Shown: piece after piece, positions 2,145 to 57,118 of the stretch
Position numbering within the stretch: position 1 is the stretch's first letter
Layout of the letters: the number at the start of each line of letters is the position of its first letter
DNA from: Devosia indica
GTDB lineage: Bacteria > Pseudomonadota > Alphaproteobacteria > Rhizobiales > Devosiaceae
Direction of reading: 5' to 3'
NCBI RefSeq assembly: GCF_003056405.1
Contig: NZ_PYVZ01000001.1
Coordinates: forward strand, 1-64,000
Length of the DNA stretch: 64,000 bases
Position numbers and translations under genes: made by a program
The notes under the pieces: model-generated
Database searches by the model: none
What the model was told of the DNA's origin: nothing
Seen by the model: the letters and a program-made list of their open reading frames with translations, nothing else

Positions 2145-3991
2145 CTTACGGGCATATCCCGTCTCTCAGCTCCGCCCTTTGCCGAATGGGCTGATACCGC
2201 GCTCGCCTGATGCGGCGACTTGAACCAGTGGAATGGCCTTTGGGTGAATTCACGCAGGGCCAGCACGGTAGAGAACGCAATCAAGGCCCAGTAGGCGGGC
2301 ACCAGGGCCTGCCACCACATCACCTCCGCCTGTCCGCTGCGCACCAATCCCACCAGATTGGTCGCAATCGCCACCGCGCTGCCCAGCAACAGCACCGCAA
2401 GACAGGCCAGTGGCCAGGGATGGAATACCGGTCCAGCCAAATGGCCGGAAAAATAGAGTATGGGCAGGGAAAGCAGAAAGCCGGCATGCAGCAACGGGGT
2501 CAGCACCATGCCGAGCAGAACAAGTTGAACTCCGGCCATGCCGCGCCAACCCAGGTCTGCCAGCAGGTCCCCGGGATAGCGATTATGCACCGCATAGGTC
2601 TGCATCCAGCCTTTCATCCAGCGGGTCCGCTGGCCGACCCAGGGTCTGAGCTGGACCGGAGCGGCTTCGAAGGTGCGGGCGGTGCTGGTGGCGCAGCGCA
2701 ATCTGCGGCGCGCCAGGCGCACGCCCAGATCAGCATCCTCGGTGACGTTGAACGCGTCCCAGCCGCCCAAACGGCGCAGCGTCTCCAGGCGGAAATGGTT
2801 GGAGGTACCGCCCAGCGGCATCACCAGGCCCCAGCGCGCCAGCGCCGGCAACAGGACAGCGAAGAGCCCGGCATATTCTCCGGCAAAGAGCGCGGCCAAC
2901 CAGCCTTCGTCAGCATTGTCGATGACGAGCCGGGCTTGAATACACTCCAGTTCGGGCTGCCGGCGAAACTGGTCCACGATACGCCGAAGCTGGTCGGGCT
3001 CGGGGCGATCTTCGGCGTCATAGACCACGACGAATTCTCCGCGGCACAATGGCAGGGCGAAATCGAGCGCCTTGGGTTTGGTGCGCGGCAGGGCATCGGG
3101 CACGATCCGAACCGCAAAGCGCGGATCGCGCAGGTGTCGATGGAGCGCCTGAATGGTGCCGGGGGAGCGACTTTCCACCACAAAGACGATGTCGAGTTTT
3201 TCCCCCGGATAGTCGAGTCGCCGCAGCGTCCGGCATAGCTGAGGCACCATATTGGCCTCGTCGCGGAGGGGAACCAAAATAGAATAGACCGGCAAGTCCG
3301 CACTATCCACCCGGTGAAGCGTCCGGTGCTCTCTCTGCCGCGGCACGGCCAGCGCACACAGCCGCAGCAGGGTTGGCAGCATGACAAGGGCAAACCAGAT
3401 GGGTGCCAGGACGGCCGGCCCGACCAGAGGCAGGCACAGGATCGCCAGGGGCGCCAGCACCAGGATTGCGGCAAACCCGTGCCGGACTGGCGCGGTCAGT
3501 TCCAGTTGCGCGGCAGCACGCGGCCAGTAACGCGCCATGTTCTGCCGTGCTGCATCGATCAGGGCCGGGCCAGCCTGATGCACCAGAAAGGTGCGCAGGG
3601 CGGGTTCTGGCACAAGGAAGATCGTGCGGCACAGATCCGGTCGCTCCTGCCGGAGCCGGGCCAGGCGCAGTACGCCCGGGAAATCTGGTGCGGCAAAGGC
3701 TATCTCTCGGTCATGCAGGCGTGTCCGGAACAAACGGACCTCGCCCAGCGCGTCGATACGGCTGGGTTCCAGGCGGGCCTCACCCTGTCTTGGTACGGTA
3801 TCTACAAAGCTCAGCCCAGCCCAACCGGCCGCCCGCGCCATGATCTCTGCCGCGGGCAGTTCGAGATGAACGGCGCACCAATGCAATGGATCTACTTCCG
3901 CCGCCAGCGCCTGATCCAAGGTCGCCCGCGCCCGATCCACCGAAGCTTGCGGGCCAAGAATTGTCTGCACAAGGGCGACAGCCTGGGACAT
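2075..3991 (-). CDS. Membrane-bound processive glycosyltransferase, family 2
   Basis: A 638-residue protein. Residues 1 to about 170 form a soluble N-terminal region, two hydrophobic helices follow (about 173-212), then a GT2 catalytic domain: YDAEDRPEP (DxD-type), TEDADLGVRL (base Asp) and the QRTRW motif of processive enzymes such as cellulose and hyaluronan synthases. Three to four further membrane helices and a basic tail end the protein. It should polymerise and export an exopolysaccharide, product unknown. It starts 13 bases after the luxI stop on the same strand with no visible terminator, so it is probably co-transcribed with luxR-luxI-type genes and coupled to quorum sensing. Its 3' end runs 70 bases into cysA on the opposite strand. 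Confidence 0.8.
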   Translation of the reverse strand: MSQAVALVQTILGPQASVDRARATLDQALAAEVDPLHWCAVHLELPAAEIMARAAGWAGLSFVDTVPRQGEARLEPSRIDALGEVRLFRTRLHDREIAFAAPDFPGVLRLARLRQERPDLCRTIFLVPEPALRTFLVHQAGPALIDAARQNMARYWPRAAAQLELTAPVRHGFAAILVLAPLAILCLPLVGPAVLAPIWFALVMLPTLLRLCALAVPRQREHRTLHRVDSADLPVYSILVPLRDEANMVPQLCRTLRRLDYPGEKLDIVFVVESRSPGTIQALHRHLRDPRFAVRIVPDALPRTKPKALDFALPLCRGEFVVVYDAEDRPEPDQLRRIVDQFRRQPELECIQARLVIDNADEGWLAALFAGEYAGLFAVLLPALARWGLVMPLGGTSNHFRLETLRRLGGWDAFNVTEDADLGVRLARRRLRCATSTARTFEAAPVQLRPWVGQRTRWMKGWMQTYAVHNRYPGDLLADLGWRGMAGVQLVLLGMVLTPLLHAGFLLSLPILYFSGHLAGPVFHPWPLACLAVLLLGSAVAIATNLVGLVRSGQAEVMWWQALVPAYWALIAFSTVLALREFTQRPFHWFKSPHQASAVSAHSAKGGAERRDMPVSQPAGNNRQRRGRKPIRDRSAAG

Positions 3992-4004
3992 GCCAAAAAG
4001 TCCG

Positions 4005-4655
4005 TCAGGCCGGCTGGGGTCCGTCAGGCCACATGGGGGCTGGCGAAGAAAAAACCGGGACGAGCGGCTTGCTCATCCCGGTGGTCCGTCGCACATTCTG
4101 CAAGGCCTGTTCGGATACTTCGATCCAGGCCGCTACGATGGGCTTGCCATCGCTGAAGACAGGATCCCCCAGCGGGGTTATGCGCCACCCCACCGCGGTG
4201 CCATGCTCAAGCATGGAGATGGAAGAGACAAAGGTGATGAAGCTATAGCCCTGCGACAGGGCATATTCCATCACCGCGCAGAAAAGGGCTGCAGACTCGG
4301 GAGCGCGCCGCCGGCCTTCGCGTCGATCGGGATGCACGTAAAAACGTGTCCAATCGGCCCCAAGCGAAGGGTGGGCGGGGAGGTCTCCTTGCACTAACCC
4401 GTTAAAGACAGTCTGCAGCAAGTTCGGCCGATTCAGTGGGGTGAGGCGGGACCCGCCTACCACCACGCCGGAATCGGAAAGCAAAATATGGGTGGCATCG
4501 TCATTGTCGAAGGCGTCCACATCGCGCGCATCGTCACGGCGCAAGGCGCTCCAGCCTGCCATTTCGACAAAGATCCTGTGGCGCAGACGAAAGCTCTGTT
4601 CCAACAGGTCACGGCCTTGCCGGTCCGCAGGACTGCGGACGATGTGCAATTTCAT
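4005..4655 (-). CDS. Acyl-homoserine-lactone synthase, LuxI family
   Basis: A 216-residue LuxI-type enzyme that would join an acyl chain from acyl-ACP to S-adenosylmethionine to make an AHL signal. The invariant N-terminal residues are present: R25 and F29 in RLRHRIFVE, W35, the acidic pair in DVDAFD, and R70 in GGSRL; a later TRFYV corresponds to the conserved S/T-RF block. The usual Glu ahead of that block is not obvious. It lies 178 bases downstream of the luxR gene, same strand. In that gap I see the imperfect palindrome CCCCTGATTGCGGGT (about 4781-4795), a possible but unproven LuxR site. Acyl length cannot be read from the sequence. Confidence 0.88.
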   Translation of the reverse strand: MKLHIVRSPADRQGRDLLEQSFRLRHRIFVEMAGWSALRRDDARDVDAFDNDDATHILLSDSGVVVGGSRLTPLNRPNLLQTVFNGLVQGDLPAHPSLGADWTRFYVHPDRREGRRRAPESAALFCAVMEYALSQGYSFITFVSSISMLEHGTAVGWRITPLGDPVFSDGKPIVAAWIEVSEQALQNVRRTTGMSKPLVPVFSSPAPMWPDGPQPA

Positions 4656-4833
4656 CGGTCTGCCCCCAAGACACCGGCATCCAAAGCCGTATTAGGCACA
4701 GGCGAACAGCGAAACGAAATTGGTAAAAATCACAGGTTTTCGCAAAATTTTCCGAGGGCGCGACGGATCGCGCAAAGGACTGACCCGCAATCAGGGGAAA
4801 TGAACCAACATCCCAGCGCGGCTGCGGGCCGAT

Positions 4834-5553
4834 CTAGAGTGTAATCAGCTTGTGGCGGATGGCCTCGACCACCGTGTGCAGGCGGTTGCTGGTGCCCATG
4901 CGCTTCTGGGCATTCTCGCAATGCTGATTGATGGTGCGTGGGGTCAGCCCGGTGATTTCGGCGATCTCGGCGGCCGTTTTGCCAGCCGCCGCCCATTTGA
5001 GGATCTCCGCCTCACGGGGGGTAATGACACGGCGGCCACGCGGGCGCCCGGCCGGGCCATTGAGGTAGCGCAATCGCCCATGAGCATAAAGAGAGAGCAT
5101 ATGCAGCTCGAAACGCCCCTTTTCGTCGAGATGGCCTGGATTGCCAACAAGAGACACAACGCCCTGCATGCCCCCTTCCATATGGACAGGCACACAGAAG
5201 CCCTCGTCCATGCCGAAGTCGCGGGCTTCATCCATAACGCGTCGGGCAGGTACGTCATTTTCCCGGTCATAGGGCGCTTCGGACCAGTCGAAAGGCAATG
5301 TGGTCGAGAAGCAGTGCCGCGCGACCGGATCGAGATGGACGTAGCCCAGCCCAGTATAACGCTCATACCACTCGTCCTTCCAGCCCGAGAGCAGCACGAA
5401 GGGGCGCACATCCATGCCCGGATCGGGAAGGCCGGAAATGATGAAGCGCTCGAAACCATAATTGCCTATGGCGCGATACATGATGTCGAGAATGGCGCTG
5501 ACGGTCGTCTGGTGCTGGATGTCCTCGATCGTGGACATCAGATCGGCATTCAT
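4834..5553 (-). CDS. LuxR-family quorum-sensing transcription factor
   Basis: A 239-residue protein with an N-terminal autoinducer-binding domain (about 20-165) and a C-terminal LuxR helix-turn-helix (about 175-236; ITPREAEILKWAAAGKTAAE). All six residues that are near-invariant in AHL-binding LuxR proteins are present with TraR spacing: W62, Y66, D75, P76, W90 and G118. It should therefore bind an AHL, presumably the one made by the adjacent synthase. It is transcribed toward luxI and the glycosyltransferase. A 10-base inverted repeat lies 73-102 bases upstream of the start. Confidence 0.9.
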   Translation of the reverse strand: MNADLMSTIEDIQHQTTVSAILDIMYRAIGNYGFERFIISGLPDPGMDVRPFVLLSGWKDEWYERYTGLGYVHLDPVARHCFSTTLPFDWSEAPYDRENDVPARRVMDEARDFGMDEGFCVPVHMEGGMQGVVSLVGNPGHLDEKGRFELHMLSLYAHGRLRYLNGPAGRPRGRRVITPREAEILKWAAAGKTAAEIAEITGLTPRTINQHCENAQKRMGTSNRLHTVVEAIRHKLITL

Positions 5554-5625
5554 CCCGGCATTCCCCCTTCAGCCGTTTGAATGCGGGAACATTGACCCTG
5601 TTCTTTTTGGAAGGCAAGTAGAATG

Positions 5626-53894: not shown

Positions 53895-54797
53895 ATGCGC
53901 CTTTCCACCTTTGCCACCGCCGCCGTGCTGGCCGTGACCCCGATTGCCGTCCAGGCGCAGGATGTCACCCCGCTGGTGAGCGCGGAATGGCTGAAAGCCC
54001 ATGCCGGTGACGAAAACCTCGTCATTCTCGACATTCGCGCCGACATCGAAAACACGGATCTGGGCGAATTGCCCTACATCGCCAATGCCGTTGTTGCCCC
54101 GTACAACACCGCCGGCTGGCGCACCGAAATCGAGGGCGTGCCGGGCCAGATCCCGCCTGCCGAGCAGGTCGCCGAGCTCATCGGCAGCCTGGGCATCGAT
54201 GGCGACGACCATGTGGTGATCGTGCCCTGGGGGACCGACAGTTCCGAATTCGGGGGCGCCACCCGCGTTTACTGGACCTTCAAATATCTCGGCCATGACG
54301 AGGTTTCGATCCTCGATGGCGGCTGGCGCCAGTATGACGCCCAGGGCGGCGAGCGCGTGGCCGAGGCCGCCGTGCCGGAGCCAACCACCTTCCCCTTTGA
54401 AGTGCGTGACGAATTGCGCGCCACCACAGCCGATGTGGAAGCGGCCCTTGCTGCCGGCACCAAGCTGATCGACGGGCGGCCGCATGCCCAGTTCGTGGGC
54501 GAAGCCAAGAGCCCGGTGGTGCGCATCGAAGGCACCATTCCCGGCTCGCTGAACCTGGAAAACTCCAAGCTCTACAGCTCGGAATATGCCAGCTTCGCGC
54601 AGCCTGAGACCATTGCCGCGCTGGCCGAGGGCCTCGGGCTGGCGGCTGACGAAGAGAACATCGTGTTCTGCAATACCGGGCACTGGGCTTCGGTGGTGTG
54701 GTTTGCGCTGCACGAAGTGGGCGGCAACACCAATACGGCCATGTATGACGGCTCGATGGCCGAATGGGCTGCCGATCCGGCCCGTCCGATCCAGTAA
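53895..54797 (+). CDS. Exported two-domain rhodanese (sulfurtransferase)
   Basis: A 300-residue protein with a signal peptide (MRLSTFATAAVLAVTPIAVQ, cleavage after AQA) and two rhodanese domains. In the C-terminal domain the active-site loop is FCNTGHWAS, with the sulfur-carrying Cys; in the N-terminal domain the equivalent loop (VPWGTDSS) lacks Cys, as in thiosulfate:cyanide sulfurtransferases. It should carry sulfane sulfur in the periplasm. It heads a putative four-gene operon whose next member is a YeeE/YedE permease. Confidence 0.9.
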   Translation: MRLSTFATAAVLAVTPIAVQAQDVTPLVSAEWLKAHAGDENLVILDIRADIENTDLGELPYIANAVVAPYNTAGWRTEIEGVPGQIPPAEQVAELIGSLGIDGDDHVVIVPWGTDSSEFGGATRVYWTFKYLGHDEVSILDGGWRQYDAQGGERVAEAAVPEPTTFPFEVRDELRATTADVEAALAAGTKLIDGRPHAQFVGEAKSPVVRIEGTIPGSLNLENSKLYSSEYASFAQPETIAALAEGLGLAADEENIVFCNTGHWASVVWFALHEVGGNTNTAMYDGSMAEWAADPARPIQ

Positions 54798-54827
54798 GCC
54801 AGACAGGCCCGACGGACCGGCGAATTA

Positions 54828-54860
54828 TTGGATGTTGCGCCCAGCCGGCGCAGCATCCAA
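54828..54860 (+). repeat. Interrupted hairpin between rhodanese and permease genes
   Basis: TTGGATG + GCGCC pair with GGCGC + CATCCAA, interrupted only by a symmetrical two-base internal loop, around a five-base loop. A T-run follows at 54879-54884 (18 bases later). It may be a processing or attenuation site giving more rhodanese than permease. Confidence 0.5.
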
Positions 54861-54894
54861 AACGTCTTGAGCGCACGATTTTTTGCAGGGCACC

Positions 54895-56109
54895 ATGAGC
54901 GACATTTCCGCATCCACCCCCAAATTCCTGCCTCCGGTCACGTCTGACCGCTGGCCCCTCATTGTTGCCGCGACCGCGCTGGTCCTGGGCTTTTTGCTCA
55001 TCACCAGCCTGGTCGATCTGCGACAGGGCGCGCTGTTCCTGATCGGCGGCGCGCTGGGCGCCGCCCTGTTCCATGGCAGTTTCGGCTTTACCGGCGGCTG
55101 GCGCCGCATGGTGGTGGAAAAGCGCGGCCGCTCGATGCGGGCGCAGATGCTGATGATCGGGGTGGCCGCGATTGCAATGATCCCGCTGGTTGCGGCCGGA
55201 TCAATCGGTGGACAGGCCATTGTCGGGGCTGCTGCCCCGGTGGGCGTCTCGGTGCTGCTGGGGGCGGCCATGTTCGGCCTGGGCATGCAGTTGGGCGGCG
55301 GCTGCGGCTCGGGCACGCTGTTCACCGTCGGGGGCGGCTCGGCCCGCATGCTGGTGACGCTGGCATTCTTCATCATCGGGGCGCTGATCGGCACGGCGCA
55401 CCTGCCCTTCTGGCTGGAGCAGCCCTCGCTGGGCACGTTCAGCCTGGGGGCGGAGATCGGCATAGCCGGCGCCCTGGCCGTGACCATTGCCGCCCTGGCG
55501 CTGGTGGCCCTTGTCACCGCGCTGATCGAGCGCCGCGCGCATGGCAATCTTGAAACCGAACCTGTGCCGGCCCGTCCGGGCTGGAGCTGGTTGTGGCTTG
55601 GCCCCTGGCCGCTGGTCGGCGCCGGGCTCGCCCTGGCGCTGCTCAATATCGCCACCCTGCTGACCGCCGGACATCCCTGGTCGATCACCTATGGCTTTGG
55701 CCTGTGGGGCGCGAAAATCGCGCAAGGCGTGGGCATTGATGTGGCAAGCTGGGAGTTCTGGACCTGGCCGGCGCAGGCCCAGGCGCTGCAATCCTCGGTG
55801 CTGGCTGATACAGTGTCAGTGATGGATTTTGGCCTGGTACTAGGTGCCGCGATTGCTGCTTCGGTCGCAGGTAAGTTCGCGCCAAAGGCCAAGCTGCCGC
55901 TGGGATCGCTATTGGCCGCCATTATCGGCGGCCTGTTGATGGGCTATGGCGCCCGCCTCTCCTTCGGCTGCAATATCGGCGCGCTGTTTTCGGGCATCGC
56001 CACGGGGAGCCTGCATGGCTGGCTGTGGTTCGCGGCAGCCTTTGCCGGCTCCTATGCCGGGGTCTGGGCGCGCCCACTGTTTGGCCTTGATGGATTGAGC
56101 CGCAAATGA
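54895..56109 (+). CDS. YeeE/YedE (TsuA-like) thiosulfate/sulfur transporter
   Basis: A 404-residue membrane protein with about ten helices. It has the duplicated half-motif of the family with its essential cysteines: QLGGGCGSGTLFTVGGGS and SFGCNIGALFSGIATGS, plus FHGSFGFTGGWRR. TsuA moves thiosulfate through a cysteine relay. With an exported rhodanese in front, import of thiosulfate or sulfane sulfur is the likely role. ATG 54895 follows GCAGGG; TTG 54883 is possible. The next gene overlaps by four bases. Confidence 0.88.
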   Translation: MSDISASTPKFLPPVTSDRWPLIVAATALVLGFLLITSLVDLRQGALFLIGGALGAALFHGSFGFTGGWRRMVVEKRGRSMRAQMLMIGVAAIAMIPLVAAGSIGGQAIVGAAAPVGVSVLLGAAMFGLGMQLGGGCGSGTLFTVGGGSARMLVTLAFFIIGALIGTAHLPFWLEQPSLGTFSLGAEIGIAGALAVTIAALALVALVTALIERRAHGNLETEPVPARPGWSWLWLGPWPLVGAGLALALLNIATLLTAGHPWSITYGFGLWGAKIAQGVGIDVASWEFWTWPAQAQALQSSVLADTVSVMDFGLVLGAAIAASVAGKFAPKAKLPLGSLLAAIIGGLLMGYGARLSFGCNIGALFSGIATGSLHGWLWFAAAFAGSYAGVWARPLFGLDGLSRK

Positions 56110-56537
56110 GTTCACGCAACACACTTCTGTTTGGTGCCGCGCTGGCCGTGTCGACCGCTGCCATCGCCTATGACCATGTGAACAATCCGGTGCCGCCGCG
56201 TCCGACGGCGGACACCAGCGTGAGCGCGGGCGCTTCGCCCTGCTCTGCGGGCGCCGCCCCGTGTGCAGCCGGGGCACCCTGCGCCGCTGGCGCGCCCGCC
56301 AAGGCCGCGCCACCGCCGCCGCCAGCTGTTGCCCCTTGTGCTGCCGGCGCCCCGGCCAAGGCCGCGCCGCCGCCTCCCCCGGCCACACCGCCCGCCACGA
56401 CACAGAAGGCCCCTCCGCCCCCGCCACCGGCCACGCCTCCCGCTGCAACGGCGCCGCAATTGGCGCCGCCACCCCCGGCCCCGAAGCCGCTTCCGGACGG
56501 GGCAGACGAAGCGCCGGATCTGGTGGTCTCTGGCTGA
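56106..56537 (+). CDS. Exported cysteine/alanine/proline repeat protein
   Basis: A 143-residue low-complexity protein. An N-terminal hydrophobic segment (about 7-21) acts as anchor or signal. Then come four PC(S/A)AGA units with cysteines at about 46, 53, 59 and 78, and two copies of CAAGAPAKAAPPPPP, followed by proline-rich runs to the end. I do not recognise a family. It overlaps the permease gene by four bases and the next gene by one, so it is part of the sulfur operon. Regularly spaced periplasmic cysteines suggest a metal- or persulfide-carrying tether; this is inference. Repeat-driven expansion is likely. Confidence 0.7.
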   Translation: MSSRNTLLFGAALAVSTAAIAYDHVNNPVPPRPTADTSVSAGASPCSAGAAPCAAGAPCAAGAPAKAAPPPPPAVAPCAAGAPAKAAPPPPPATPPATTQKAPPPPPPATPPAATAPQLAPPPPAPKPLPDGADEAPDLVVSG

Positions 56538-57118
56538 TGAGCGACGCCCAGGACCAGGCCCACGCGGAAATCGCCTTTTGCGAGGCTATCCTCGCCAAGG
56601 GCGGTCTTAACGTGCTGAGCGAAACCTTTGCGGGCATCACCGACATTGCCGCCTGGAAGCATTATCCGCCGGGCGACGTGTTCGACCCCGCCAGCAATGC
56701 GCAATGGTTCTATCATTGCCATCCGGCCGAAGAGGGATCGGAGGAGCATGGGCATTTCCATTGCTTCCTTCGCCCCGGTGGACCGGAGGGCCCGATCCAT
56801 CACCTCTGCGCGGTGGGCGTTGATGCCCATGGGCGGCTGTTGCGGCTTTTCACCGTCAATCAATGGGTGGTTGGCGATGACTGGGCGGATGCGGCAACGA
56901 CCGTTCCCCTGCTCGCGCGCTTCGACATGCAGATGCCGCGGCCATCCTACCTCGTCAATCGCTGGCTGACGGCGGTGCTGGTGGCCTATGAGGACGAGAT
57001 TGCGGCGTTGATCCGCCGGCGCGACGCGGTGCTTGCGGCGCATCAGCCGCCAGAGGGCGTCGCGGCCCACGATGACCGGGCGCTTGAGGTGACTTCGGAA
57101 CTTCTAGTGGACCGCTAA
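56537..57118 (+). CDS. Uncharacterised His/Cys-containing protein (DUF6969-like)
   Basis: A 193-residue cytoplasmic protein with no signal peptide, starting at ATG 56537 inside the previous TGA. Its middle has FYHCHPAEEGSEEHGHFHCF and IHHLCAVGVD, a dense His/Cys/Glu cluster that looks like a metal site; the later part (NQWVVGDDW, LARFDMQMPRPSYLVNRWL) is helical. It resembles proteins labelled DUF6969, whose function is unknown. Fourth gene of the rhodanese/YeeE cluster; its end overlaps the convergent cutC by 15 bases. Confidence 0.75.
   Translation: MSDAQDQAHAEIAFCEAILAKGGLNVLSETFAGITDIAAWKHYPPGDVFDPASNAQWFYHCHPAEEGSEEHGHFHCFLRPGGPEGPIHHLCAVGVDAHGRLLRLFTVNQWVVGDDWADAATTVPLLARFDMQMPRPSYLVNRWLTAVLVAYEDEIAALIRRRDAVLAAHQPPEGVAAHDDRALEVTSELLVDR

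Follow-up and report, generated by a model that had tools for sequence, protein, structure and literature searches.

This analysis concerns four adjacent genes of Devosia indica (NCBI RefSeq assembly GCF_003056405.1), located in a window of 64,000 nucleotides that covers positions 1 to 64,000 of the forward strand of contig NZ_PYVZ01000001.1. In order, these genes encode an exported-looking rhodanese, a YeeE/YedE-family permease, a cysteine-repeat protein and a member of the uncharacterised Pfam family DUF6969, with coordinates as listed in Table 1. The original prediction, made from the letters of the sequence, had described four same-strand genes of which the last three overlap, and these were indeed found on the + strand between 53895 and 57118, with overlaps of 4 base pairs (bp) between the permease and repeat genes and of 1 bp between the repeat and DUF6969 genes. 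This four-gene observation is confirmed, and the unit is conserved and wider than first described, while the sulfur relay that had been read into it is partly supported. The four genes may be cotranscribed and their products may transfer sulfur.

Table 1. Genes and features of the four-gene locus (positions of the window)
Feature	Position	Strand	Basis or conservation
Exported-looking two-domain rhodanese, 300 amino acids (aa)	53895..54797	+	Pfam Rhodanese, hydrophobic N-terminus
YeeE/YedE-family permease (Sulf_transp), 404 aa	54895..56109	+	Pfam; TsuA alignment
Cysteine-repeat protein, 143 aa, with an N-terminal membrane segment, four PC(S/A)AGA units and a proline-rich tail	56106..56537	+	
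Conserved N-terminal segment of the repeat protein, RNTLLFGAALAVSTAAIAYDH, residues 4-24	56115..56177	+	71 anchored relatives
DUF6969 protein (PF22308), 193 aa, histidine-rich	56537..57118	+	Pfam; hydropathy
DUF6969 histidine cluster H60, H62, E70, H71, H73, H75, H89	56714..56803	+	94-100% conserved in both sets, 133 proteins
YeeE/repeat gene overlap, 4 bp (ATGA)	56106..56109	+	Same length in 65/70 relatives

The rhodanese contains two stretches matching Pfam Rhodanese (74 bits) and, as had been described, has a hydrophobic N-terminus and a single cysteine, C259, which lies in the second domain and is kept in 71/71 relatives with an anchored repeat gene; against the 3-mercaptopyruvate sulfurtransferase model NF008557 it scores 91.4 bits, below the cut-off of 250. 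The permease is a member of Sulf_transp (PF04143, 247.2 bits with a cut-off of 27), and its closest relative among the matches listed is from Devosia marina (98%). Both cysteine motifs originally noted in it were recovered, C137 aligning with TsuA C91 and C359 with TsuA C293; the third TsuA cysteine, C22, has Gly64 in its place, and scores against the curated TsuA models of NCBIfam fall below their cut-offs (60 vs 400 for NF052577, 49.9 vs 645 for NF041049). C137, C359 and G64 are identical in 80/80 relatives. In the TsuA-YeeD structure, C293, C91 and C22 are reported to line the path, and C22 contacts a cysteine of YeeD (PMC11073785). The retention of the first two cysteines with glycine at the third thus suggests an outer path like that of TsuA and an inner hand-over of another kind. 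None of the four proteins scored above the cut-off of an NCBIfam model, and no match to TusA was obtained on the window's contig. The four-gene unit likely includes a sulfur importer.

A permease scan of species genomes returned 147 relatives, and the counts of the unit are based on the best 80 of these. The proposed search for the same gene order elsewhere recovered rhodanese, permease, anchored repeat gene and DUF6969 in order in 58/80. A further 12/80 have the first three genes without DUF6969 within 900 bp downstream, and six of these lie where a contig ends (L070, L088, L094, L111, L114 and L122; L numbers denote loci and G numbers genomes). Ten of the 80 were not scored as carrying the repeat gene, namely eight distant permease relatives (L130-L137, 48-61% identity), three of which have a rhodanese, L121 at a contig end, and L138, which has a broken permease match but carries both the repeat gene and DUF6969. 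Wherever an anchored repeat gene directly follows the permease, a rhodanese is also present (70/70), and in 65 of these 70 relatives the permease and repeat genes overlap by exactly 4 bp, which is not expected by chance.

Co-occurrence was assessed among 136 genomes of the same family, in which DUF6969 was found in 79 and a close permease orthologue in 80, after exclusion of four weak permease matches on inspection of the list (G019, G051, G001 and G135; E 3e-20 or worse). Both were present in 79 genomes, only the permease in 1, only DUF6969 in 0 and neither in 56 (Fisher 8e-38, without correction for kinship), and in the permease-only genome, G108, the contig ends 24 bases past the match. In addition, 11/11 genomes chosen for a YeeE-repeat locus lacking an adjacent downstream DUF6969, or lying at a contig end, hold DUF6969; this set includes the added L128, which has DUF6969 directly downstream, and leaves L070, L094 and L121 outside, while by match position L061, L071 and L114 correspond to genomes G020, G041 and G030. 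Overlapping samples of the order and the phylum yielded DUF6969 in 41/297 and 20/398 genomes, respectively, and all 133 DUF6969 loci from the family, order and phylum samples were examined, 81 within the family (set F) and 52 outside it (set O). In set F, 73/81 loci combine a Sulf_transp gene no more than 4 kb away with a cysteine-repeat open reading frame (ORF) of at least two units within 5 kb, and the anchor motif is visible in 72. Among the exceptions, L002 has the repeat protein without a permease, L009 and L022 are at contig ends with cysteine units visible, in L231 and L024 a nearby permease separates DUF6969 from the anchored repeat gene, and L232, L234 and L246 have DUF6969 away from the permease, yet all three keep the anchored repeat gene downstream of the latter. 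Between the permease and a rearranged DUF6969, two family genomes have a thioredoxin-family gene, alone in L231 (1731-2177) and with a DsbD-like gene in L264 (5207-6348).

The repeat protein has cysteines at positions 46, 53, 59 and 78, each inside a PC(S/A)AGA unit, and no Pfam family, as was originally noted; its proline-rich stretch, also noted then, proved to be a local feature, several relatives carrying cysteine units right to the end. Its best-conserved part is the N-terminal membrane segment. The 71 anchored relatives were gathered by a motif in the first residues (RN..LF and variants), and those positions are therefore selected, but unselected positions are also strongly conserved, with Asp just past the hydrophobic stretch in 71/71 and the next His in 65/71. 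The number of cysteines varies from 0 to 18 among these relatives, some of which are cut by contig ends, with APCAAG, APCAAA and NPCAAG as the most frequent units. The protein is predicted to be exported and membrane-anchored, although, with an AxA-like end of the N-terminal segment present in many members, this segment could be either a signal peptide or an anchor that stays uncleaved. At the distant YeeE loci L158, L194 and L195, PCGL-type units follow a similar N-terminal segment ending in DH.

Membership of the fourth protein in DUF6969 is supported by 236.6 bits (gathering cut-off 27), and by hydropathy it is without a hydrophobic N-terminus. Across the 133 proteins, H60, H62, G72, H73, H75, H89, N108, W110, R162 and D163 show 98-100% conservation in F as well as in O, and E70 and H71 are conserved in 100% of F and 94% of O, so that six histidines reach at least 94% conservation and no cysteine does. 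C15 is found in 81/81 F and 31/52 O proteins, C76 in 80/81 and 4/52, and C61 in 68/81 and 4/52. Since histidines are conserved throughout and cysteines are not, DUF6969 looks like a metalloprotein that would serve the repeat protein and not like a sulfur acceptor, and it is probably metal-binding. Searching Pfam at E values up to 10 gave no credible relative of DUF6969, and no MNIO model matched it.

Outside the family, DUF6969 keeps wider company. When sequences were read individually, an exported-looking cysteine-repeat protein was found near DUF6969 in 41/52 O loci, with other units (NPCAAK, CGAK, CCAAEG and CAAC among them), on the opposite strand in L178, L179 and L181, and with few units in L190, L196, L197 and L199. 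An automated composition scan placed repeats near DUF6969 in 75/81 F and 42/52 O loci (26.4 blocks near vs 7.5 far per 100 kb); as its output contains false ORFs, those of L147, L148, L177 and L185 among them, and lacks genuine ones (L155, L196, L200), the count by reading was used for set O. Of the 11 loci without a repeat neighbour, L143, L183 and L206 lie at contig ends, L209 has a partial gene, and the other seven are taken up below. A Sulf_transp gene is near DUF6969 at 13/52 O loci (L155, L157, L158 and L191-L200). DUF6969 appears to be linked more broadly to exported-looking cysteine-repeat proteins than to sulfur uptake.

The placement of the pair beside sulfur-transfer genes recurs in other architectures. 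In L191, a split permease of PmpA/PmpB type (C-terminal, then N-terminal half of Sulf_transp) is followed by the repeat gene, DUF6969, a rhodanese and an ArsR-type regulator, and L192 and L193 resemble it by tblastn and gene order. In L155 and L157, and by tblastn in L198, a DSP/BLH_phosphatase domain is fused to the repeat protein, with a split permease upstream and DUF6969 present in all three; the L157 fusion scores 54 bits against the sulfur-transferase family TIGR01244, below the cut-off of 85.85, and the DUF442 domain of Blh is reported to transfer sulfur from thiosulfate in vitro (PMC5823870). Elsewhere, L180 and L182 encode fusions of the repeat protein with a cytochrome c domain of SoxA/TsdA type (29.9 and 39.4 bits vs 27; below the cut-off of the SoxA model), and L184 and L153 match this fusion by tblastn. 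In L189, a DUF2282 precursor, MNIO, DUF2063 and DoxX genes precede a separate cysteine peptide and DUF6969; replacement of MNIO by DUF6969 was considered there and dropped, as the MNIO operon has its own upstream, bufferin-type DUF2282 precursor. The ArsR-type regulators that end the L191-L193 units (L191:11389-11733, L192:11297-11614, L193:10565-10891; Pfam on L191 only) share several cysteines and may be sulfane-sulfur sensors. Very long cysteine-repeat proteins of 579-774 aa with 30-49 xPC motifs stand beside FGE-type and DUF6969 genes in L207 (3401-5725), L145 (5869-7968) and L146 (5953-7692), and YHS-domain genes lie near DUF6969 in five O loci (L204:408-962 by Pfam; L156, L201, L202 and L205 by tblastn).

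Several characterised systems resemble parts of this arrangement. TsuA/YeeE with YeeD/TsuB (PMC11073785) shares the Sulf_transp family and the matched C91 and C293; the Devosia permease differs by Gly64, by its far lower curated scores and by a contig without a TusA match, and the locus by its additional rhodanese, repeat protein and DUF6969. In Alphaproteobacteria, sulfur import of the YeeE-like kind is also described for SoxT1/SoxT2 and for PmpAB, the latter with one cysteine per half and thus two in all, and a rhodanese-like protein, Rhd442, occurs near soxT1A (PMC11582611). SoxT has three conserved cysteines in place of the two found here, the sections of PMC11582611 on these proteins name no cysteine-repeat protein or DUF6969, and no match was found when this genome or any control genome was searched for SoxY. 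Bufferins with their MNIO/DUF2063 partners likewise combine an exported cysteine-motif precursor with a dedicated cytoplasmic partner, including cytochrome c and FGE-sulfatase fusions (PMC12452194), but differ in that DUF6969 matches no MNIO model; neither 'DUF6969' nor 'NPC' appears in the main text of PMC12452194. MNIO (PF05114) was sought beside the precursor and found nowhere on the window's contig, C1, the genome's one match being on contig C5. There, in L267 (C5:116500-125500), positions 3569-5592 hold a bufferin-type cluster of DUF2282 (85.9 bits), MNIO PF05114 (349.8 bits) and DUF2063 (86.6 bits). CdeC, the Clostridioides difficile exosporium protein (PMC7677010), also has Asn-Pro-Cys (NPC) repeats, six in number, but is a self-assembling spore-coat protein. 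No publication naming DUF6969 was matched in the one library searched, which is no proof of its absence from print, and among the matches listed for NPCAA or NPC repeats none concerned this pair by its title.

Taken together, these observations point to the pair as an unstudied two-part system that handles sulfur or metal outside the cell membrane. The explanation that we favour, held tentatively and at somewhat less than even likelihood, is that this pair has been recruited to a sulfane-sulfur importer in Devosia and its relatives. It builds on gene order, conservation, co-occurrence, conserved residues and domain fusions, from which the transfer of sulfur, the action of DUF6969 on the repeat protein and the presence of any metal are inferred. 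The core would be the exported protein with short cysteine units and the cytoplasmic, histidine-rich DUF6969 protein, which may act on its partner ahead of export, so that the cysteines are modified, loaded with metal or protected in much the way that MNIO enzymes treat bufferins; the lack of a hydrophobic N-terminus, the company of exported-looking cysteine-repeat proteins in varied operons and the conserved histidines suggest such action prior to export. Once the pair was joined to the importer, the exported rhodanese would draw sulfane sulfur from thiosulfate or persulfides and hand it to the membrane-anchored tether, whose cysteine units would receive it and feed the permease, sulfur moving inward past C359 and then C137. 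The likeliest outer sulfur donor of the permease would accordingly be the adjacent repeat protein, which the rhodanese would load with sulfur, and for this clade the sulfur reading is plausible.

Several findings weigh against this explanation. The original prediction had named the pair occurring without a rhodanese or YeeE neighbour as evidence against its tie to sulfur uptake, and literally this was found: at 39/52 O loci Sulf_transp is absent from the surrounding 4 kb, a distance fully covered by sequence on both sides in 26 of these, and the association of the pair with sulfur uptake is thus not a specific one. Away from contig ends, a full DUF6969 without any cysteine-repeat neighbour occurs at 7/52 O loci (L141, L147, L148, L151, L156, L177, L185), the first four of which are short of sequence on one side, and DUF6969 is retained in 4/8 genomes whose YeeE lacks the repeat gene. 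An enzymatic role gains nothing from a PDB search with the DUF6969 profile, which returned no match. A quick tree of 97 rows groups family DUF6969, except L002, with L186, L196, L197, L199 and L200 at full support, and sets the other rhodanese-plus-permease rows (L158, L191-L195) apart on long branches. A single clade of 20 sulfur-context rows was not rejected by the approximately unbiased (AU) test (p 0.34; without L155, L157 and L198, and with L156, L185, L189, L190 and L209 left out), and the idea of repeated recruitment to sulfur loci was dropped on this account, one origin or several being compatible with the result. To these are added FGE-type genes at 12/52 O loci, a domain tied to copper in bufferin work (PMC12452194), and CopC and CopD genes directly downstream of the L157 DUF6969 gene (L157:10599-11808), which speak for copper.

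Copper is indeed a serious rival, since the partners fused to bufferins, cytochrome c and FGE-sulfatase, recur here. The repeat protein would then be a periplasmic Cu(I) sponge matured or loaded by DUF6969, with the rhodanese and permease guarding against or exploiting copper-sulfur chemistry. The FGE-type genes and the cytochrome c fusions of L180, L182, L184 and L153 parallel the Buf1|Cytochrom_C|FGE-sulfatase fusions described for bufferins (PMC12452194), and the L189 pair adjoins a bufferin operon. However, DUF6969 within the family follows the sulfur permease in 79/79 cases, and L157 is the sole case of neighbouring copper genes noticed, no systematic copper-gene search having been made; copper buffering is regarded as somewhat less likely than sulfur import. 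If the repeat protein instead buffered thiols or redox state in the periplasm generally, without a particular sulfur or metal cargo, this would suit the wide variation of the units and the thioredoxin-family and DsbD-like genes of L264 and L231, but would leave unexplained why the anchor and the overlap with the permease gene are conserved; such a role is judged improbable.

Two alternatives remain. In one version of the originally predicted relay, DUF6969, the His/Cys protein, would accept sulfur from the permease in the cytoplasm, standing in for TusA or YeeD, for which the four-gene unit, the near-constant C15 and C76 of family loci, the contig without a TusA match and a permease lacking the cysteine that meets YeeD in TsuA all speak. 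This proposal has been weakened: C61 and C76 are each present in just 4/52 proteins outside the family, L197 and L200 hold Ser and Thr at the cysteine positions despite having the same unit, and DUF6969 is also found without such a permease nearby. With its cysteines specific to the clade, a cysteine-based acceptor seems decidedly unlikely, slightly less so than the thiol buffer. Uptake of selenium by a YedE/FdhT-type permease is very improbable, for although selen_YedE_FdhT (NF033796) is the best NCBIfam match of the permease, it gives 112.4 bits vs a cut-off of 350, and the best SelD match in the genome gives 36.4 bits vs 125.

In a more far-reaching reading, considerably less probable than the sulfur relay, DUF6969 could be a new class of cytoplasmic metalloenzymes, distinct from MNIO, that modifies the repeated cysteines of exported proteins before secretion in a widespread system of Pseudomonadota resembling those of ribosomally synthesised and post-translationally modified peptides, with the Devosia cysteine string serving as a membrane-anchored, sulfur-carrying arm of the YeeE permease. 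In any case, an uncharacterised Pfam family gains a testable partner in the exported cysteine-repeat proteins, and the locus raises the role of DUF6969 as a new question. Should DUF6969 mature these proteins, it would represent a kind of maturation factor that differs from the MNIOs, and should the anchored form feed the permease, this would bear on how periplasmic sulfur enters the cytoplasm through YeeE-type channels, a passage called poorly understood (PMC11582611).

As to the control of the unit, a scan of the locus for promoters and terminators gave no signal above chance. An inverted repeat absent from the terminator-scan list lies in the 97-bp gap between the rhodanese and YeeE genes (54830-54858), with 12-bp arms containing one G-T pair, no T-run and a loop of 5 bases.

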